DNA from: Arthrobacter sp. zg-Y820
GTDB taxonomy: Bacteria; Actinomycetota; Actinomycetes; Actinomycetales; Micrococcaceae
Direction: 5' to 3'
Assembly: GCF_030142155.1 (NCBI RefSeq)
Contig: NZ_CP126247.1
Location: 806,001-870,000 of the forward strand
Length of the DNA stretch: 64,000 nt
The notes below the pieces were generated by a model. That model made no database searches. It was not told where the DNA came from and saw only the letters and a list, made by a program, of their open reading frames with translations. Of this stretch, positions 16,781-63,128 are shown one piece after another (position 1 is the first letter of the stretch; each line of letters starts with the position of its first letter). Both the position numbers and the translations under genes were made by a program.

Positions 16781-17683
16781 ATGACCACGGACCTTCGCCA
16801 CGAGCCGGGCAAGACGGCCCCGATCAGTGATGGATCATCCCTGCGCGAGCTGCAGACGGAGCACGGGGTGCTGCGCTACCACGAAGCCGGCGACGGACCG
16901 CCGCTGGTGTTCCTGCACGGTTCCGGCCCCGGGGTGACCGGCATGCGGAACTTCGGGGGCATCCTTCCGGCGTTCGCCGAGCACTTCCGCTGCTACGTGC
17001 TGGAGTTTCCGGGCTTCGGCGTCAGCGACGCCACTGACCTGCATCCCATGCAGGCGGGCGCACAAGCGGTCACCGATTTCCTCGACGGCCTGGGCCTGGA
17101 CCGCGTTGACATCATCGGCAACTCGATGGGCGGCATGATCGGCACCCGGTACGCCATCAGCCATCCCGACCGGGTTCGCCGCCTGGTGACCCTGGGTGGC
17201 ATGGGCGTGAACATTTTCAGCCCTTCGCCCGCTGAAGGCATCAACCTCCTGATCGCCTTCACCGAGGACCCCACGCGGGAACGGCTGGTTCAGTGGCTGC
17301 GGTCCATGGTTTACGACCAGGAGCTGGTCACTGAGGAACTGATCAACGAGCGCTGGCAGCAGGCGACGGATCCGTTGACCCTGGCCAGTGCGCGGAAGAT
17401 GTACAGCAGGGCGGCAATGAAGGCGACGGCGGCTGCGGCAGCCGCTTCAGATGCGGCGCCCGGTTGGACCCAGCTGCACAAGCTCAAGGCCAAAACCCTG
17501 ATCACCTGGGGGCGTGATGACCGCGTCTCCCCGCTGGACGGTGTGCTTGTTCCGCTGCGGACCATTCCCGATGTGGAACTGCATGTGTTCCCCAACTGCG
17601 GCCACTGGGCCATGATCGAGCAGAAGGCGGCCTTCGAGAGCACTGTCCTCGCGTTCCTGCGGCGGGAAGAGGTTCCAGAGTGA
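16781..17683 (+). CDS. hsaD: Meta-cleavage product hydrolase (4,9-DSHA hydrolase)
   Basis: 300-aa alpha/beta hydrolase of the BphD/HsaD family. The oxyanion region is VFLHGSGPGVTGMRNFGG, the nucleophile elbow is DIIGNSMGGMIGTRYA (Ser), the acid Asp is in TLITWGRDDRVSPLDG, and the His is in VFPNCGHWAMIEQ. It hydrolyses the C-C bond of the HsaC product to the CD-ring acid and 2-hydroxyhexa-2,4-dienoate. GAGGAG lies 8 nt before the ATG. It overlaps kshB by 4 bp. Confidence 0.93.
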   Translation: MTTDLRHEPGKTAPISDGSSLRELQTEHGVLRYHEAGDGPPLVFLHGSGPGVTGMRNFGGILPAFAEHFRCYVLEFPGFGVSDATDLHPMQAGAQAVTDFLDGLGLDRVDIIGNSMGGMIGTRYAISHPDRVRRLVTLGGMGVNIFSPSPAEGINLLIAFTEDPTRERLVQWLRSMVYDQELVTEELINERWQQATDPLTLASARKMYSRAAMKATAAAAAASDAAPGWTQLHKLKAKTLITWGRDDRVSPLDGVLVPLRTIPDVELHVFPNCGHWAMIEQKAAFESTVLAFLRREEVPE

Positions 17684-18867
17684 ACAATGCGATGACGAGC
17701 AATGCGATGACGAACGATGCGAAAACGAGCAATGCGATGACGAACGAAGCTATGACGAGCGTAAAGAGTGCGGCAGTGAACACCGTGACCACGGAGATCG
17801 CGACCACGGAGACCGTGACGGCGAACGCCGCGCCGGCGGCCACCCCGCTGCAGGTGCGGGTGGTTGAGGTGATCCGCGAAACAGCTGACGCGCACACACT
17901 GGTGCTGGAGCCTGCGGGCGGCAGCGGGGAAACCATCAGCTACAAGCCCGGACAGTTCCTGACGGTTCGGATACCGAGTGAGCGGCCGTCCGGCGCCGCC
18001 CGCTGCTACTCCCTGTGCAGCTCGCCGCTGCAGGACGAAAAGCTGAAAATCACCGTCAAGCGAACCCGGGAGGGCTACGGTTCCAACTGGCTCTGCGACA
18101 ACGTGGTGGAAGGACACATGCTGGACATCCTGCGTCCCGCCGGTACCTTCACTCCGCACTCGCTGACCACTGACTTCCTCCTCTTTGCCGGCGGCAGCGG
18201 GGTGACCCCGGTGATGTCCATCATCAAGTCAGCCCTGGCCGGGGGAACCGGGCTCATCACCCTGATCTACGCCAACCAGGATGAATCGTCGGTGATCTTC
18301 CGCGAGGAGCTCATCGCGTTGACCAAAGCGCATCCGGGCCGGCTCAACGTAATTCACTGGCTGGGAACCGTTCAGGGCCTGCCCGACACAGCGTCCATCG
18401 GTGCCCTGGCTGCTCCGTACACCGACCGGGAAGTATTCATCTGCGGCCCGGGACCGTTCATGGACTGCGTCGCGTTATCCCTGAACACGCTGGGCATGCC
18501 GCCGGAGCGGATCCACATCGAACGCTTTACGTCCCTGGGGACTGATCCCTTTGCCCCCGTGGCCGTCGTCGTCGACGACACAACGGGGGAGAACGCGGTT
18601 GTGGAGGTGCAGCTGGACGGCCAGAGCAGCTCCGTGGCCTGGCCCGGCGGAAACCGTCTCTTGGACGTCCTGCTCAACGCCGGCCTCGACGCACCGTTCT
18701 CCTGCAGGGAGGGCGCCTGCAGCGCCTGCGTCTGCAGAGTCCTCGAAGGCGAGGTGCGGATGGAAAAGAACGAGGTTCTGGATGACACGGACCTCCGCGA
18801 GGGCTACACGCTGGCATGCCAGGCGGTCCCCGTCAGCGCGAAGGTCAGGGTTACGTACGACGAGTAG
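17680..18867 (+). CDS. kshB: 3-ketosteroid 9alpha-hydroxylase reductase with repetitive N-terminus
   Basis: 395-aa oxidoreductase. FAD domain with RCYSLCSSPL, NAD domain with FLLFAGGSGVTPVMSIIKSAL, and a C-terminal plant-type 2Fe-2S domain with CREGACSACVC and a distal Cys. It passes electrons from NADH to KshA. GTG start within the hsaD stop, with GAAGAGG 7 nt upstream. The first ~30 residues are five pentapeptide units of type [NDE]A[MK]T[SN] encoded by 15-bp repeats, then a Thr/Ala-rich spacer; this extension is absent from ordinary KshB. Confidence 0.9.
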   Translation: MNNAMTSNAMTNDAKTSNAMTNEAMTSVKSAAVNTVTTEIATTETVTANAAPAATPLQVRVVEVIRETADAHTLVLEPAGGSGETISYKPGQFLTVRIPSERPSGAARCYSLCSSPLQDEKLKITVKRTREGYGSNWLCDNVVEGHMLDILRPAGTFTPHSLTTDFLLFAGGSGVTPVMSIIKSALAGGTGLITLIYANQDESSVIFREELIALTKAHPGRLNVIHWLGTVQGLPDTASIGALAAPYTDREVFICGPGPFMDCVALSLNTLGMPPERIHIERFTSLGTDPFAPVAVVVDDTTGENAVVEVQLDGQSSSVAWPGGNRLLDVLLNAGLDAPFSCREGACSACVCRVLEGEVRMEKNEVLDDTDLREGYTLACQAVPVSAKVRVTYDE

Positions 18868-54371: not shown

Positions 54372-55268
54372 ATGGATTCCCTCCCGGCCGAACATCCCCG
54401 GCCGCGTCACTTTATTCTTCATCTCAGCGACACGCACCTGGTCGGCGGCACGAACCCGCTCTACGGCGCAGTTGACAGCCAGGCCAAGCTGGCCGAGCTG
54501 TTCGCCAGACTGGAAGTTTCAGGACAAAAGCCCGAAGCCATCGTCTTCACCGGCGACCTGGCGGACAAGGGCGAACCGCAGGCGTACAGCAAACTCCGCG
54601 ACATCGTGGCCCCGGTTGCCGCACGGATGGGCGCCCGGCTGATCTGGGCCATGGGCAACCACGACAACCGCGAAAACCTCAAGAGCGCGCTGCTGGGCGA
54701 AGTCCCGGACATGGCACCGGTGGACCGCGTGTATCTGGTCAACGGACTCCGGATTATCACGCTGGACACCACGGTGCCCGGGTACCACCACGGTGAGCTC
54801 AGCGGAGCCCAGCTGAACTGGCTCCGGAACGTTTTAAAGACGCCGGCACCGGAGGGCACCATCCTGGCCATGCACCACCCGCCGGTCCCCAGCGTTCAGG
54901 ACCTGACCGTCCTGGTGGAGCTGCGCCATCAGCGGGATCTCGCCGCCGTCCTGGAAGGAACGGATGTCCGGTCCATCATTGCGGGCCACCTGCACTACTC
55001 GACGTTTGCCACATTTGCCGGCATCCCCGTGTCCGTGGCGTCAGCGACCTGTTACACCCAGGATCTGACCACCCCGGGAACCCGCGGCCAGGACGCCGGG
55101 CAGGCGTACAACATGGTGCACGTCTATGAGGACTCAGTGGTGCATTCGGTCGTGCCGTTGGAGGAGAACAAAACGGTCGGCGAGCGGGTGGACGAGGCGG
55201 AAACCCGCCGCCGCCTGGATGCGGCCGGCGTCCGCATCCTCGACGCGCAGCAGCTGGCCTCCGCCTGA
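54372..55268 (+). CDS. Class III cyclic-nucleotide-type phosphodiesterase (CpdA/Rv0805-like)
   Basis: 298 aa from ATG 54372, with GGAAGG 5 nt upstream; a frame from 54321 is less likely. The dinuclear metal motifs are complete: [48 protein letters not shown]. It probably hydrolyses 3',5'-cyclic nucleotides or other phosphodiesters. The last ~45 residues form a charged helical extension. Confidence 0.9.
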
Positions 55269-55310
55269 GGCGTTACCTCCGCCTGAGGCGTTAACCCTTA
55301 GCCTGGGGCG

Positions 55311-55748
55311 TCAGCCCTCCTCTGCATGGCGCTCAGGCTCCGGGCCCAGATTGAAGAAGCGCCCGGTGACGCTTTCCGGGCGAATCTCCACGTAGCGGTA
55401 CTTCAGCGTCCGCACCCACGGCTGCAGCGGCAGTGCATCGGCTGCGTCGATCTCGCTTTGATTCTCAAGCTGGCGCGTAGTGCCCTTGACGACAACTGAC
55501 CAGGCCTGGTCACTGTGAATCCCGTCGGCCTCGAAGGCCACGTGGTCGTTCACGGTCAACTCTGCCAGCTTGGTGCCCGGGCTGGTACGGAAGAGGAGAA
55601 CGCCGTCGTGCGCGTAATAGTTGAGCGGATAAATGCTCGGCCGGTTGTTTACGCTGACCGCCAAACGGCCATGGAAGGTCTTCTCCAGGTATTTCCAGCT
55701 CTGCTCGGGGGTTAAATCCACAACGGGCGGGAGATCTTCAGTAGTCAT
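55311..55748 (-). CDS. Pyridoxamine-5'-phosphate-oxidase-fold flavoprotein
   Basis: 145 aa from ATG 55748. Split-barrel features: ARLAVSVNNRPSIYPLNYYAHDGVLLFRTSPGTKLAEL-like segment, HVAFEADGIHSDQAWSVVVKGTTRQLE, and VRTLKYRYVEIRPESVTGRFF. It belongs to the PNPOx-like family that binds FMN or F420; the substrate is unknown. It diverges from the catalase gene across 142 bp, hinting at shared stress control. Confidence 0.87.
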   Translation of the reverse strand: MTTEDLPPVVDLTPEQSWKYLEKTFHGRLAVSVNNRPSIYPLNYYAHDGVLLFRTSPGTKLAELTVNDHVAFEADGIHSDQAWSVVVKGTTRQLENQSEIDAADALPLQPWVRTLKYRYVEIRPESVTGRFFNLGPEPERHAEEG

Positions 55749-57647: not shown

Positions 57648-59276
57648 CTAGTTTTCCCAGGGCGCCTTGATCGGGAAGAACTTCTCCAGGAAGTCCGTGA
57701 CGCGCTCGGCGCGTTCCTGGGCCGGGACTTCCGGGAAGCTGCCGTCGTTGAGGCAGAACAGGTCCATGTTCCGCTTGGCCAGGAGCTTGTCCATCTGCTT
57801 CAGGCCGGCATAGGACGTGGTGTCCACGTACTTCACCTTCGCGGTTTCCTGGGTCACCGCACGCGCGGTGAGCAGCGCGTAGTAGTGGTACAGCGAGTTG
57901 GTCACCGATATGTTGTCCTTGGCGCGGAATCTGCTCCCCGCCGTGGCGGCGAACTCATCCGGAAACGCGTTTTCCATTTCCAGGAGCACGCTCTTTCGCA
58001 GCGGAGCGGCCGTGTGTTCCAGATGCCGGGTGGTGATCCGGCCAAAGCGCTCCCACAGCAGGCGCCGGTTGACGCGCGCTGCGTTTTCGAAGCCGCTGCG
58101 CTCGGAATCGTTCGCGCCCAAACCGATCCGGGTGCTGGCTTCGATGAACTTGGTGATGCCGCCGGGGGAGAAGAACAGATCCGGTCCCACCGGCCGGCCG
58201 AAGAACATGTCGTCGTTGGAGTACAGGAAATGCTCCGCCAGGCCCGGGATGTGCTGCAGCTGGGCCTCGACCGCCTGCGAGTTGTGCGTGGGCAGCACCG
58301 AGGGATCCTTGAAATGCTCCTCCGCGCGCACAAAGGTCACCGACGGATGGTCGGCCAGCCACTCGGGACGGTCCGAGTCCGTGGCGATGAAAATCCGGCG
58401 GATCCACGGTGCGAACATGTACACCGAGCGCAGGGCGTACTTGAGCTCGTTGACGTGGCGGAACCGGGCCTCGTGGTCGTCGCCTTCACCAACGACGGCG
58501 TCCTTCATCCGGGCCGCGCGCGCAGCCTGGTACTCGGCGGAGCTGCCGTCTACCCAGGAGAAGACGAGATCCACGTCGAAGTCGATGTCGGTGGCATGGT
58601 CGGCGAACATGTTCTCGATGGTCGGCCAGGTCAGTCCGTGCTTTTCCACGGTGCCGCGGACCACTTCACTGGCCGGCAGGGTGCGGCGGGTCAGCGAATT
58701 CTCCACCGGCAGCGTGATCGCCGGGCCGGTGAGGTCCCAAAGCTCCAGCTGCACGCCGGCGGAGGGACCGAAGGTGAGGTTGGTGCCGCTGACGGCGCGG
58801 GGGCGGAAGACTCGGATGATCCGGGACTTGTCCGCCGGCCAGAGTTCGCCGTCGGCGATGAGCAGGGTACGGGTCTTTTTGGTGTCGACGCTGCGCGCGT
58901 AGAAGGGTTCCTCGCGGCAGGCCTCGACCATGGCGCGGCGCAGTTCTTCGCGGTGTGCGAGGTCAATGGCGATGACCGGGCGCTGGTCGTTGCCGCGCAC
59001 CAGAAGGTAGGTGATGCCGGCGTTGTCCAGGATTTTCCGGACAAACAGCAGGTCTTGGACCATGGCCTGGTGCGGGGTCAGGCCGGTGTCCATCAGCGTC
59101 AGGCGGCCCTTGACCTTGACGACGTCGGGCCGGTGCTCTACCCGCTCGATGACTGCCAGAGAGGCGGTCTGGAGATTTTCGCTTTCATGCACGGGCTCGG
59201 GGGTACCGAAATACACATCGTGTTCTGCGGCTATATCTGTAATCGGAACCTCCAATAAGTTCGTGTGTGCGGGCAT
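57648..59276 (-). CDS. Stealth-family sugar-phosphate transferase
   Basis: 542 aa. Stealth CR1 IDFDVDLVFSWVDGSSAEYQAAR (about residue 235), CR2 RFRHVNELKYALRSVYMFAPWIRRIFIATDSDRPEWL, CR3 HNSQAVEAQLQHIPGLAEHFLYSNDDMFFGRPVGPDLFF, and a C-terminal CR4-like region. These enzymes transfer hexose-1-phosphate and build capsule or cell-surface polymers. The ~225-residue N-terminal part is less conserved. The start at 59276 is tentative; the frame stays open to 59435. Confidence 0.9.
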   Translation of the reverse strand: MPAHTNLLEVPITDIAAEHDVYFGTPEPVHESENLQTASLAVIERVEHRPDVVKVKGRLTLMDTGLTPHQAMVQDLLFVRKILDNAGITYLLVRGNDQRPVIAIDLAHREELRRAMVEACREEPFYARSVDTKKTRTLLIADGELWPADKSRIIRVFRPRAVSGTNLTFGPSAGVQLELWDLTGPAITLPVENSLTRRTLPASEVVRGTVEKHGLTWPTIENMFADHATDIDFDVDLVFSWVDGSSAEYQAARAARMKDAVVGEGDDHEARFRHVNELKYALRSVYMFAPWIRRIFIATDSDRPEWLADHPSVTFVRAEEHFKDPSVLPTHNSQAVEAQLQHIPGLAEHFLYSNDDMFFGRPVGPDLFFSPGGITKFIEASTRIGLGANDSERSGFENAARVNRRLLWERFGRITTRHLEHTAAPLRKSVLLEMENAFPDEFAATAGSRFRAKDNISVTNSLYHYYALLTARAVTQETAKVKYVDTTSYAGLKQMDKLLAKRNMDLFCLNDGSFPEVPAQERAERVTDFLEKFFPIKAPWEN

Positions 59277-59449
59277 GGCGGGCCGCGGCTGAAGAGTGCG
59301 GCTCGTGCGGCTCTGCACATAGTGTGGTGCTGGTCTCCGGGGTGCGGCCCGGATGTGCCGAGCATTCCCCGGAAAACCCGGATGCTCTGGGCGCGGGTGC
59401 CGCTGCTGAGTAGCATTGGGTGCTAGCGCGGACATCTCCGGGAGCTGAT

Positions 59450-60097
59450 GTGAGATACCGTAACACCACGCTGGCTGCGGCGACGCTGCTTGTGCTCAGT
59501 ATGTCATCCTGTGCCGTTCCGTCGGGTACGGGTGAGACCTCCGGCACCCCGGCAGCCTGGGTGTCCTATACGACGCCGGACGGATCCCTGGTCTTTGAGC
59601 ACCGGGCGGACTGGACGGTGCAGGAGAAGCCGCCGCTCGCCAACGATCCCGCCGGTGGCATTTCGGTCCAGGTGAACGACGCCGAGGGAGACATGGTGGC
59701 CCGGCTCGACACCGGGATCATCACCGACCTGGTCTGCGCCGATCCCGATGAGCAGGCGGCTTACACGGAGTACGACACCGAGCCCATGCCGGAACTGGAC
59801 TCGGAGCAGGGCACCGAGCAGCGGTTCGTTTACCGTTCCGTGGCGCCGTCCTCTCCGGAACGGGGCGAGGCAGTCGCCACCTATGCGGTGATCAGTGAAA
59901 TCGGTGACCGCGGCCAGTGCGGTCTGTTTGATTTCTTCACCTTTACGGAGTCCAGCGGCGGGCGCTTCGCCGGTTCTTATCCTTCGGACGCGGTGGGCGC
60001 GGGGCAGTCCTATCTCGAGGGTGCTGCCGCGTACGAAACCAGTGACGAGTTCCGGGACGTGAAGCGGATGCTGGTATCACTGCGGGATACGCGCTAG
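59450..60097 (+). CDS. Secreted lipoprotein upstream of the DUF6318/PKD cassette
   Basis: 215 aa from GTG 59450 with GGAG 5 nt upstream. Lipobox LLVLSMSSCAVP. The mature part is acidic with Tyr/Ser/Asp-rich beta segments (YTTPDGSLVFEHRADWTVQEKPPL, FVYRSVAPSSPERGEAVATYAVISEIGDRGQCGLFDFFTF). Family not recognised. Its last ~17 codons belong to a direct repeat copied at 61857, where a truncated VKQTLVSLRDTR end survives. Confidence 0.8.
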   Translation: MRYRNTTLAAATLLVLSMSSCAVPSGTGETSGTPAAWVSYTTPDGSLVFEHRADWTVQEKPPLANDPAGGISVQVNDAEGDMVARLDTGIITDLVCADPDEQAAYTEYDTEPMPELDSEQGTEQRFVYRSVAPSSPERGEAVATYAVISEIGDRGQCGLFDFFTFTESSGGRFAGSYPSDAVGAGQSYLEGAAAYETSDEFRDVKRMLVSLRDTR

Positions 60098-60166
60098 TTC
60101 CCTTTAGCGCCGCGGGTTTCCGGGTTTCTCTGGCGTCCTGTGGATAACTCCGTATGCTGTGCCGCA
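60047..60166. repeat. Direct repeat copy 1 bounding the DUF6318/PKD cassette
   Basis: Covers the end of the lipoprotein gene and a likely promoter with -10 TATGCT at 60153-60158. The second copy is at 61857-61978; by eye about 14 mismatches over about 112 aligned positions. Recombination between copies would remove the two genes in between. Confidence 0.8.
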
Positions 60167-60224
60167 GCCTCGTACTATTGGCGTCACTCACAGTCCCGCA
60201 CGATTTTGCCCTGGGGGTTCTTGA

Positions 60225-60935
60225 ATGTTCCGCACTGGTTTTCGCTCTGATAACTTTTCTGCTGCCCGGCTAGGCGCCCTTGGGCTCGCTGCGGTGTTGG
60301 TGCTGGGTGGGTGTTCGGGTTCCGGCGATGATCCCGGTGCCGAGGCCGCTGAAGGCTCGAATAGTGCTGCGCCGAGTGGGAGTGCCAGTGCTGGCGGTGA
60401 TGTTACCGAGTCTGCCTCCGCGTCTCCGACCCCGACGCCCACGCCGACCCCTACTGCTGCCTACAAGCCGGCGACTGCTGAGGGACCTGCCGAGAACGTC
60501 CCCCTGCCCGTAATGCCCGAGCTGGCGAAGCAGGAATCGAAGGAGGGTCTCGAGGCCTTCGCCGAGTACTGGTATGCGCTGGCCAACTATGGGTACGAAA
60601 CCGGCGACCCTGAACCTGTTCGTGCTGTTAGTGCTGAAACGTGCATCACCTGTAGGAGTTACTACCGCGTTATTCAAAAGGGTTACGTAGACGACGATTG
60701 GATGGTTGGTGGGAAACTCCATGTTCAAGATGTGAGCTCTAATTTTGTGGCCACCGTCGACGGTTATTTTCAAGCGACAACCCTGATCCTCCAAGACGAG
60801 ATGCAATTCTTTGGTCCAGAGGGAGTTCAAGGGACGGAAACCGAAAGCAGTACCCCAGGAGTTCAACTCATGGAAGCCCAATATGTTTCAGGGTCCGGGT
60901 GGTATGTAATCATCCTGGAAACGCTAGAAATGTGA
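60225..60935 (+). CDS. DUF6318 family lipoprotein
   Basis: 236 aa. Signal LGALGLAAVLVLGGCSGSG, then a Ser/Ala-rich linker ending in a (TP)n run at about residues 68-76. The DUF6318 domain follows: ENVPLPVMPELAKQESKEGLEAFAEYWYALANYGYETGDPEPVRAVSAETCITCRSYYRVI, with a CXXC. Function unknown; typical of Arthrobacter-like genomes. Base composition drops from about two-thirds GC to about half after 60600, so the 3' part and the next gene look imported or recombined. Confidence 0.85.
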   Translation: MFRTGFRSDNFSAARLGALGLAAVLVLGGCSGSGDDPGAEAAEGSNSAAPSGSASAGGDVTESASASPTPTPTPTPTAAYKPATAEGPAENVPLPVMPELAKQESKEGLEAFAEYWYALANYGYETGDPEPVRAVSAETCITCRSYYRVIQKGYVDDDWMVGGKLHVQDVSSNFVATVDGYFQATTLILQDEMQFFGPEGVQGTETESSTPGVQLMEAQYVSGSGWYVIILETLEM

Positions 60936-60939
60936 TGCG

Positions 60940-61836
60940 ATGGTACTCAAGGTAAAAGCCCCCTTAGTCTTCTGTATTATTATGCTAGCGCTCGTTAGTT
61001 CCTCGTTCACTCCGGCTTACGGTGAGACAGACGGTGAAGGGAAGCTGCTGCCAGGGGGAGTCGAAGGTATCGTGCGTGAGCGGGACCCAGCGACGGGGAA
61101 CATTGTCCCGGTCAACGTGGGGACACCGGAAAGTTTGTTTGGCTTTTACTATCGCCCGGTCTGCTTTGATGATGAAACCGGTGATATCGACTGCTTGGCA
61201 GGCCAACCCGTGGAATGTGATGCTGCGCCGGATGGTAAGTATGTGTGGTGGTACAGCGGTTTGAAGGCAACCCCTCGAGAGACCTGGCCCAGGTACGGTG
61301 ACACCCCCACCTGTATCTACACCTCGGATCCTGACGAAGTTGCCGCTGAGCTGGTCGGATTGGTCCTCACAGAATTCCAGACGGCGCCGATCGATCCCGG
61401 TCAGTTCACACTGCAACCGAGCCCTTTCTCCTTAGTCAACATGCCCACTAACCTGTATGCCGACGCACGGGAGCAGACATTCGACATGTCGCTGCTGGGG
61501 CAGAGCATACGGATCCAGGTCCGCCCCACGGAGTATGAGTGGAATTACGGGGATGGAACCATATATGGGCCGTCGTCCCGTCCAGGAGGCCCGCTTCCGG
61601 ATGACCTTGTCGGGGACGCGACGCAAACAAGCCACATTTATGAGGAACCCGGTGAGTATTTCGTATCCGTTGCAATTTACTTTTCCGGCAGATACTCGAT
61701 CAACGGCGGTCCGATGATACCCATTGACGGCCGAGCCCTGGCATTCCCACCGACGCAGACTATTAGCGTCTGGGAATCTGAATCCCGAAGTGTGGCCGAC
61801 GATTGCCTCGCCAATCCTGCTGGTTTTGGCTGTTAG
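60940..61836 (+). CDS. Secreted PKD-domain protein
   Basis: 298 aa. Signal peptide LVFCIIMLALVSSSFTPAYG. The middle has four to five Cys (VCFDDETGDIDCLAGQPVECD, CIYTSDP). The C-terminal ~110 residues are a PKD-like beta-sandwich (EYEWNYGDGTIYG, TSHIYEEPGEYFVSVAIYFSGRYS) ending SVADDCLANPAGFGC. It starts 4 bp after DUF6318 and is likely co-translated. GC content is visibly below that of neighbours. A paralogous 3' fragment lies at 62044. Confidence 0.83.
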   Translation: MVLKVKAPLVFCIIMLALVSSSFTPAYGETDGEGKLLPGGVEGIVRERDPATGNIVPVNVGTPESLFGFYYRPVCFDDETGDIDCLAGQPVECDAAPDGKYVWWYSGLKATPRETWPRYGDTPTCIYTSDPDEVAAELVGLVLTEFQTAPIDPGQFTLQPSPFSLVNMPTNLYADAREQTFDMSLLGQSIRIQVRPTEYEWNYGDGTIYGPSSRPGGPLPDDLVGDATQTSHIYEEPGEYFVSVAIYFSGRYSINGGPMIPIDGRALAFPPTQTISVWESESRSVADDCLANPAGFGC

Positions 61837-61856
61837 GCGGGTTGTTCCGGGATAGG

Positions 61857-61978
61857 CGCGTTCCCAGACGTAAAGCAGACGCTGGTGTCGCTGCGGGATA
61901 CGCGCTAGTTCCCTTTACTGCCGTGGGTCTCCGGTTTTGTCTGGTGTCCTGAGGATAACTCCGTATGCTTTGCCGCAG
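61857..61978. repeat. Direct repeat copy 2
   Basis: Repeats 60047-60166, including the codons for LVSLRDTR-stop and the -10 TATGCT (61964-61969). Here the promoter runs straight into a tandem 7-bp repeat instead of a DUF6318 gene, so the second cassette has lost its front genes. Confidence 0.8.
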
Positions 61979-62043
61979 AACGCAGAACGCAGAACGCAGA
62001 ACGCAGAACGCAGAACGCAGAACGCAGAACGCAGAACGCAGAG
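61974..62043. repeat. Nine perfect tandem 7-bp units (CGCAGAA), plus one imperfect
   Basis: Units run without interruption from 61974 to 62036, then CGCAGAG. The array starts about 5 bp after the -10 box, at the predicted transcription start. Translated in the frame of the downstream fragment it reads QNAERRT three times; any change not a multiple of three units shifts the frame. Confidence 0.95.
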
Positions 62044-62314
62044 CGAATTGAGCTATGATTCCGGGGCACCCCTGCCTGACCTGCAAATCGGTGAACCGAC
62101 CGCGACAAGCCACGCTTACACATCGACCGGTAATTTTCAGATTCATGCCACCGTGTACTTCACCGCGGAGTATTCCCTGAACGGCGGCCCGATGATTCCG
62201 ATTGACGGGCGCGGCATCTTCGATACGCCGCCCGAAACCGTCAGCGTCTGGAAATCCGAATCCCGCAACGTTGCCGATGACTGCCTCGTGAACCCTGCCG
62301 GTTTCGGCTGCTAG
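62044..62314 (+). pseudogene. 3' fragment of a second PKD-domain gene
   Basis: Encodes about 90 residues, SYDSGAPLPDLQIGEPT to NVADDCLVNPAGFGC, clearly paralogous to the end of the gene at 60940 (shared YSxNGGPMIPIDGR, PPxTxSVWxSESR, ADDCLxNPAGFGC). No start codon or Shine-Dalgarno is available downstream of the promoter; signal peptide and N-terminal half are missing. A remnant of a second cassette. Confidence 0.85.
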
Positions 62315-62327
62315 CCACTCGCAGGCG

Positions 62328-63128
62328 CTAGCTGGTCAGGAAACCTGGCCGCGGCACCCGGAAAAGCGTCCGAGGATCCTGCAACAGCGCGGGATGCTCA
62401 AACTCGGATCTCAGGATTTCGCCAGTGACCGTGACGGGGCGCGTCGCGGTGTCGTTCGTCAGCCGCACCGGACCCACGGTGCCGGTGCGCAGCACGGCGC
62501 GGTCGGCTCCCAGCAGGACGACGTCGTCGCCCTCGTCCATGTCCTCCAGGAACCGCACCAGCTGCCGGCCCTTCTTGCCGACGATGGGAGTGCCTTTTGC
62601 CGACAGCATGGGCAACACAATCCTTGGATTATCGGCAGAACCTCCGGCCGCAGGCCGGGCAACCCAGAGGGCGTCGCCGCCGGGCTCGGCGGGAAGCGCG
62701 GGATGCTCCGGCTCCGGCCAGACATAGGGTAGCCCGGCACGGGTGTCCGGAAAGAGCGGCCCGTACACGTCGGGCGACTTAAGTATGAGGTTGGAGCGGT
62801 GGCTCTCGTGGAACGCGGCGTCACCGAACCACGGCGGCAGCACGACGTCGGCGCCGTCGGACTCGGGCGCGAACTCCAGAAGCTGCTCGTAGACGGTGTC
62901 GGCGTGACCGCGGGCGATCCATTCCTTGGTCATGGCCAGCCCGTAGGCGGTCAGCGCCGGCACATACCCCATCCACATCTTCATCGCGGGATGGCTCTGC
63001 CAACCGTAATCGGGGATGACCAGGGCGCGCAGCACCTGCAACGTCTCTACCCGCTGTTTGCCCAGCCGGGCCTGGTCCAGAACGCCGGCACTGCGGCTGA
63101 AACTGTCATAGGGGAGAAACGTTTGCAC
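62328..63128 (-). CDS. MSMEG_6728-like / Pyr_excise family protein
   Basis: 266 aa. The N-terminal half, MQTFLPYDSFSRSAGVLDQARLGKQRVETLQVLRALVIPDYGWQSHPAMKMWMGYVPAL, resembles the pyrimidine-dimer DNA glycosylase (T4 endonuclease V-like) family and actinobacterial proteins named MSMEG_6728 family. The C-terminal half is unfamiliar. Whether it is a DNA repair enzyme is uncertain. It converges with the PKD remnant. Confidence 0.75.
   Translation of the reverse strand: MQTFLPYDSFSRSAGVLDQARLGKQRVETLQVLRALVIPDYGWQSHPAMKMWMGYVPALTAYGLAMTKEWIARGHADTVYEQLLEFAPESDGADVVLPPWFGDAAFHESHRSNLILKSPDVYGPLFPDTRAGLPYVWPEPEHPALPAEPGGDALWVARPAAGGSADNPRIVLPMLSAKGTPIVGKKGRQLVRFLEDMDEGDDVVLLGADRAVLRTGTVGPVRLTNDTATRPVTVTGEILRSEFEHPALLQDPRTLFRVPRPGFLTS

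Follow-up and report, generated by a model that had tools for sequence, protein, structure and literature searches.

A DUF6318/PKD hotspot in Arthrobacter and the probable exchange of a sequence block across its gene junction

What is exchanged at a locus where the high-GC first half of a lipoprotein gene runs into a low-GC second half, and where a partner gene follows at once? This question is raised by a DUF6318 lipoprotein gene and the PKD-domain gene directly behind it in Arthrobacter sp. zg-Y820 (Micrococcaceae, Micrococcales). Both lie in a stretch of 64,000 nt of NZ_CP126247.1, hereafter the window. The initial annotation of the window described the pair as an exchangeable surface-protein cassette, gained, swapped and lost by recombination between two direct repeats. 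Cassette behaviour is borne out by the comparison with relatives, both by block exchange and by modules that are present or absent at a second chromosomal site, and the locus is a hotspot for the two-gene module. The unit is another one: as judged from the sequences, it is well supported that the C-terminal half of DUF6318 (DUF6318-C) and the N-terminal part of the PKD gene (PKD-N) are exchanged together. Block exchange and a cognate specificity pair, taken jointly, are our best explanation, with a probability of about 0.5.

The exchanged block and its limits

Profile searches covered 119 genomes of the genus, the family and the order (28 others of the genus). The comparison of the locus across these 28 congeneric genomes, proposed as a check in the initial annotation, gave conserved 5' halves before variable 3' halves, together with copy-number variation and decay. 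The leader and the first ~110-125 codons of DUF6318 (DUF6318-N) track the flanking genes, unlike the remainder of DUF6318 and the beginning of the PKD gene. The homology common to copies is also made of the leader and these first ~110-125 codons, with the 3' part of the PKD gene in some pairs. The exchanged unit, i.e., DUF6318-C plus PKD-N, extends to the whole PKD gene in some lineages.

This is best seen in closely related genomes (designated G plus a number). For G011/G027, the synonymous divergence (dS) of the flanking genes is 0.036 (LP, the adjoining lipoprotein-like gene), 0.043 (PYR), 0.016 (G63) and 0.020 (CAT). Within the module it is 0.07 for DUF6318-N, saturated for DUF6318-C, 1.72 for PKD-N and 0.13 for the C-terminal part of PKD. 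Likewise, G001 and G003 are identical at 94% in Pyr_excise, 88% in LP and 97% in DUF6318-N, and at 33% in DUF6318-C and 36% in PKD-N. No such diverged block is found in G014/G028, G015/G027 and G004/G025. In a sliding comparison of five chosen pairs, identity drops at about codons 105-125 of DUF6318 in all five. It recovers within the PKD gene at codon ~135 (G011/G027, G022/G025) or ~60-80 (G008/G026), so that breakpoints lie inside both genes in three of the five pairs; there is no recovery within PKD in G001/G003 and G006/G010. Saturated synonymous sites mean that old alleles have been brought in, not that the sequence has changed fast in place; fast divergence without recombination is rejected, since these sites lie beside barely diverged flanks.

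Pairwise distances give the same partition. Over 33 modules (G009 and G053 left out, two other modules of G013 included), the distances of DUF6318-C correlate with those of PKD-N (r 0.75; 0.71 given DUF6318-N) more than with those of DUF6318-N (r 0.38; partial −0.08 given PKD-N). Within the clade of this strain (11 modules) the two values are 0.95 and 0.24, respectively. As controls, the N and C halves of LP, PYR, G63, STE and CAT were compared with each other, giving r 0.85-0.91 over all genomes (17-27 rows each). The controls restricted to clade I are uneven: 0.83 (LP), 0.61 (PYR), 0.24 (G63), 0.95 (CAT) and −0.68 (STE, three rows). G013 was left out of these flank-half controls and of the region-by-region identity table. 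A windowed scan of the correlation with DUF6318-C peaks at positions 41-130 of PKD, with lower values over 1-30 and towards the end; the signal peptide is variable in any case. For 28 clade-I DUF6318 genes, approximately unbiased (AU) tests were run on each half with the group of the other half: C-half data reject the N-half group (p 9e-20), and N-half data reject the C-half group (p 2e-11). Both groups had been named after the trees were seen.

The same contrast is found between tandem copies within a genome, with N-half and C-half identities of 0.98 and 0.29 (G003), 0.91 and 0.35 (G016), 0.91 and 0.53 (G018), and 0.94 and 0.64 (G012). Elsewhere module and orphan copies differ in both halves (e.g., 0.48 and 0.28 in G004). 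In the DUF6318 and PKD trees, alleles are common to several species; the first DUF6318 trees gave warnings of few columns and long branches. Exchange of the DUF6318-C/PKD-N block is thus very probable. The block is contiguous and gives way as a whole to old alleles that are strongly diverged and common to several species, while the leader and DUF6318-N follow the flanking genes or are homogenised within a genome.

As the initial annotation had it, both genes are of lower GC content than their surroundings. The N part of DUF6318 has a GC content of 0.65 and joins a C half of 0.48 (0.46 at third codon positions, GC3); the PKD gene has 0.56-0.57, and five flanking genes have 0.63-0.69. Over the genus, mean GC3 is 0.56 for DUF6318-C (modules), 0.58 for PKD-N and 0.74-0.87 for the flanking genes. 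Since low GC is common to the block genus-wide, it is by itself no sign of recent foreign origin here, and such an origin is not upheld.

Sites, copy number and orphan genes

DUF6318 is found in 98 of the 119 genomes and the PKD partner in 99. Within the genus (own genome included), the module lies between the Stealth-family and Pyr_excise genes in 28 of 29 genomes, that of G009 being elsewhere. LP is detected at this main site in 27 of the 28 (not in G002). One intact DUF6318 and one intact PKD gene are found in 14 of these 28 genomes and more in 13 (at most four DUF6318 or two PKD); genes are counted as intact when their open frame exceeds 195 aa (DUF6318) or 240 aa (PKD). The remaining one, G013 (Arthrobacter sp. 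ATA002; loci L080 and L125), has all of LP, Stealth, Pyr_excise, DUF6318 and PKD frameshifted. These frameshifts are taken as probable sequencing or assembly errors because the flanking LP, Stealth and Pyr_excise genes are broken as well. A second site adjoins a G6PD-like gene and amtB. It is occupied in three of eight genomes: G001, G003 and G013 have a module together with orphans there, and the site is vacant in G000, G006, G010, G019 and G021. It was also noticed that G010 and G004 (L105, L116), both titled Arthrobacter gandavensis (JCM 13316 and SR10), fall into different LP and Pyr_excise subclades; one of them may be misnamed.

The association of the two genes is asymmetric. All 34 intact PKD genes of the genus have DUF6318 directly upstream (gaps of −23 to +32 nt), and of the 64 intact DUF6318 genes 30 are not directly followed by an intact PKD. 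In the remaining genera of the family, an upstream DUF6318 accompanies 51 of 56 PKD matches, and 25 of 76 DUF6318 matches have no PKD among the matches listed, which is a lower bound. The five PKD exceptions include two short matches at contig starts and a further one of 63 residues; weak DUF6318 matches are unlisted, from which some of these apparent absences may stem. An extreme array is that of G030 (L100, L101), whose small genome belongs to a different genus of the family and has ten DUF6318 matches and one weak PKD match.

Several orphans resemble modules of other genomes. The module of G001 is the best match for the C halves of orphans from G006 (63%), G003 (69%) and G013 (85%), and one orphan of G001 reaches 92% against a module of G013. 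Some match nothing well (e.g., G022, 35%). The second module of G003 has kept its DUF6318 (229 aa), its PKD gene being broken. In six orthologous orphan pairs the ratio of nonsynonymous to synonymous divergence (dN/dS) of the C half is 0.18-0.62, from few changes. Within the genus, the leader core TGTGGAYAA is found in the 130 nt before the DUF6318 gene in 32 of 34 modules and in 19 of 30 orphans; in the clade of this strain it precedes 12 of 17 orphans. Orphans are unlikely donors for complete swaps, because they are without the PKD part of the block.

The arrangement in strain zg-Y820

The intact pair of this strain is of allele A, which is common to G010, G021, the third locus of G013 and the decayed second module of G003. 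The direct repeats announced at about 115 bp, each with the C-terminal end of a lipoprotein, do exist: they are 122 nt long with 86% identity (blastn E 5e-36), and the 3' end of LP lies inside both, copy 2 encoding FPDVKQTLVSLRDTR-stop. That both hold the same promoter stands in part. Only the upstream part of the leader is found in copy 2, and in the own genome the leader occurs only at the two repeat copies; the match of copy 2 stops at 61978, short of the place of the TACTAT motif (60173-60178 in copy 1), which we read as a putative −10 box.

Table 1. Features of the DUF6318/PKD locus, in window coordinates
Feature	Coordinates	Strand	Remarks
Stealth-family gene	57648-59435	-	All four conserved regions (CR1-CR4) present; divergent to the adjoining LP
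LP, lipoprotein-like gene	59420-60097	+	Open reading frame, start codon uncertain; 3' end inside repeat 1
Direct repeat, copy 1	60046-60167	+	LP 3' end and upstream part of the leader
Leader conserved before DUF6318 genes	60138-60224	+	From an alignment of 16 upstream regions
DUF6318 gene, whole	60225-60935	+	
DUF6318 constant part	60225-60608	+	Signal peptide, lipobox C30, Pro/Thr linker, first ~48 domain residues
DUF6318 variable C half	60609-60935	+	Allele A
PKD-domain gene, whole	60940-61836	+	
PKD gene, N-terminal part	60940-61419	+	Signal peptide and cysteine-rich domain; varies with DUF6318-C
PKD domain	61387-61779	+	Residues about 150-280 of 298
Direct repeat, copy 2	61857-61978	+	LP 3' remnant and truncated leader
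7-bp tandem array	61974-62042	+	CGCAGAA, 9.9 copies, 100% matches
3' fragment of PKD gene	62048-62314	+	Allele C
Pyr_excise gene	62328-63128	-	

Recombination between these repeats is not supported as the exchange route, and the repeat is rejected as a general exchange site: in a blastn scan of 40 loci, this genome alone has the LP 3' end twice. Apparent LP 3'-end copies in L081 and L095 (protein-level scan, E 0.21) lie inside PKD genes and are taken as chance. The 122-nt repeats look like a local insertion scar.

The 7-bp array after the second repeat was correctly announced, and the PKD 3' fragment behind it is real. The fragment is nevertheless the remnant of a different allele and not a decayed duplicate of the first copy: 70 of 88 residues match the module-1 PKD of G003 and 66 of 88 the second-site PKD of G013, versus 49 of 83 for its own neighbour. 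It is starred with the same two genes in the PKD tree, where it is flagged as a long branch. Two allele states thus stand in a row in this strain, i.e., an allele A module upstream of the ruins of an allele C module. The identity of the repeat copies (86%) is about that of this strain and G010 over the same stretch (85.7%). An old duplication would explain this no better than a module that came in from a related species and settled beside a resident one. The repeated LP end would most simply be what an insertion or duplication within the leader region left behind; a deletion may then have removed the resident allele C module from its leader to about PKD codon 208, and the array may have grown at the deletion junction.

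As for the surroundings, Stealth-family proteins are hexose-phosphate transferases, and LP has no Pfam family at E ≤ 1. The Pyr_excise (pyrimidine dimer DNA glycosylase) domain covers residues 1-76 of its protein and is followed by ~190 residues without family. Elsewhere in the window, a 15-bp/30-bp tandem repeat of about five units lies at 17682-17760. An 18-bp tandem repeat of 2-3 units with a palindromic core lies at 55258-55311, at the end of a metallophosphoesterase-like gene (named from our own reading of the open reading frame).

Possible function and rival explanations

The DUF6318 protein matches its profile (PF19843) with 134.1 bits for a cut-off of 23.8 over residues 79-228, and is the sole match in its own genome. 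Structures were predicted for the two proteins singly. DUF6318 falls into the NTF2-like superfamily by its fold; the identity to NTF2-like proteins (ARC6, VirB8/TraM-type, CaMKII hub) is about 5-18% in the rows shown, and this likeness shows no function. A profile search of solved structures matched only its signal and linker region (best E 0.042). The PKD domain is recognised both by profile and by fold; a sequence search of solved structures gave two weak PKD matches (E 0.88 and 0.95). For its export a signal peptide is assumed. A single weak PADLOC match, to the ZorF model (E 0.0038, residues 37-110, mostly linker) is taken as an effect of composition, and no PHROGs match was found in the phage library.

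The pair looks like an unstudied recognition or attack-and-protection system. The secreted PKD protein would be a diversifying partner acting at the surface of neighbours or of the cell itself, the DUF6318 lipoprotein its cognate protector or receptor, and orphan DUF6318 genes would, in the manner of orphan immunity genes, be retained as protection from foreign PKD alleles. The pattern resembles effector-immunity modules with orphan immunity genes, and from this analogy a protector or receptor function of DUF6318 is conceivable, at somewhat less than an even chance. The broader proposal is tentative too, falling somewhat short of even. It would be an undescribed polymorphic self/non-self system of Micrococcales, made of a lipid-anchored NTF2-like protector or receptor and a secreted PKD partner without dedicated secretion machine. 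Its specificity would lie in a single exchangeable block that straddles the gene junction, and orphan protector genes would belong to it.

Two known systems are close. In the type VI secretion system (T6SS) arrays of Vibrio cholerae, a conserved upstream stretch serves as the anchor when modules are added, and the old immunity genes stay (PMC5361080). The likenesses are that (i) common allele types replace one another at a fixed site; (ii) partnerless protector-side genes beside the module resemble the modules of other strains; (iii) a conserved upstream stretch could be the anchor. Here, unlike in V. cholerae, T6SS and VgrG are absent, the lipoprotein gene stands before that of its partner, the PKD partner has a signal peptide, the specificity block spans the junction of two genes, and toxicity and immunity are hypothetical. 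In firmicutes, tandem type VII secretion system (T7SS) immunity paralogues (esaG, tipC) recombine into mosaics with copy-number change (PMC9484751), and tandem paralogues with homology blocks and variable regions are found in both cases. The differences are that a T7SS toxin gene is not recognised here, that the DUF6318 product is a lipoprotein, and that its variable half varies together with part of the partner gene. As in effector-immunity systems, the adjacent cognate gene is exchanged with the specificity part (counter-example: G008/G026); unlike in such systems, no dedicated secretion or delivery genes lie beside the module. The pair is not filed as an effector-immunity member, because no toxin domain is recognised, secretion genes do not adjoin, and inhibition is hypothetical.

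Several observations weigh against a cognate pair acting in antagonism. (i) Physical linkage alone could give much of the correlation between DUF6318-C and PKD-N. (ii) G008 and G026 have exchanged DUF6318-C, yet PKD beyond codon ~60-80 stays; strict cognate pairing would thus have to rest on the N-terminal end of PKD. (iii) A near-universal pair is unusual for weapons. (iv) No dedicated secretion or toxin genes are found among 20 neighbours of other loci and in the flanks of the window, which are mostly housekeeping genes. (v) No enzymatic or toxin domain is recognised by Pfam, the PKD domain being the only family in its protein, and the N domain, modelled poorly and not covered by the fold rows, has no fold match. 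(vi) The match of orphans to foreign modules is partly expected, about one own module standing against many foreign ones; some orphans match their own module best (G018, second site of G013), and many outside this clade are without the leader and the common N half. Among the same neighbours, Zeta_toxin matches belong to SRP54 and dynamin-like GTPases, and no integrase is found among those with Pfam matches, attC sites not having been searched for. An ADP-ribosylglycohydrolase-like gene adjoins the pair of Kocuria.

Part of this would suit an obligate envelope complex of DUF6318 and PKD, the exposed face of which is diversified by recombination against phages or predators. Adjoining gene parts would travel together for the compatibility of the complex, and orphans would be alternative anchors. 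Near-universal presence, the position of DUF6318 immediately upstream of PKD, the exchange block and the lack of a recognised toxin domain all agree with it, yet by itself it leaves unexplained why partnerless DUF6318 genes are kept under purifying selection (30/64) versus 0/34 partnerless intact PKD genes; it is considered unlikely. Kin or mating-type-like recognition or signalling, as in ComQXPA or agr, is improbable. There too one hypervariable block lies over adjoining parts of neighbouring genes, and the block would set communication groups, the secreted PKD protein being a signal or handle read by the cognate lipoprotein. One contiguous specificity block common to several species fits well, but unlike in ComQXPA or agr no kinase, regulator or signal peptide precursor is recognised beside the module, which is flanked by Stealth, LP and Pyr_excise.

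Ordinary local duplication and decay with fast sequence change and no exchange would account for the repeat, the array and the fragment if this window stood alone. It is very improbable, being already contradicted by saturated synonymous sites beside barely diverged flanks, and also by sharp breakpoints, by alleles common to several species and by a fragment that is another allele.

In the open-licence PMC literature no mention of DUF6318 or PF19843 was found, nor a joint mention of Arthrobacter, PKD domain, lipoprotein and hypervariable, subscription literature being mostly outside this scope. The locus offers a clear example from nature in which one half of a protein is inherited with half of the neighbouring one and not with its own other half. 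If the pair is indeed an antagonism or recognition system, such a system would be widespread in Micrococcales. Matched and mismatched pairs can be drawn from the allele groups, so that the question is directly testable.

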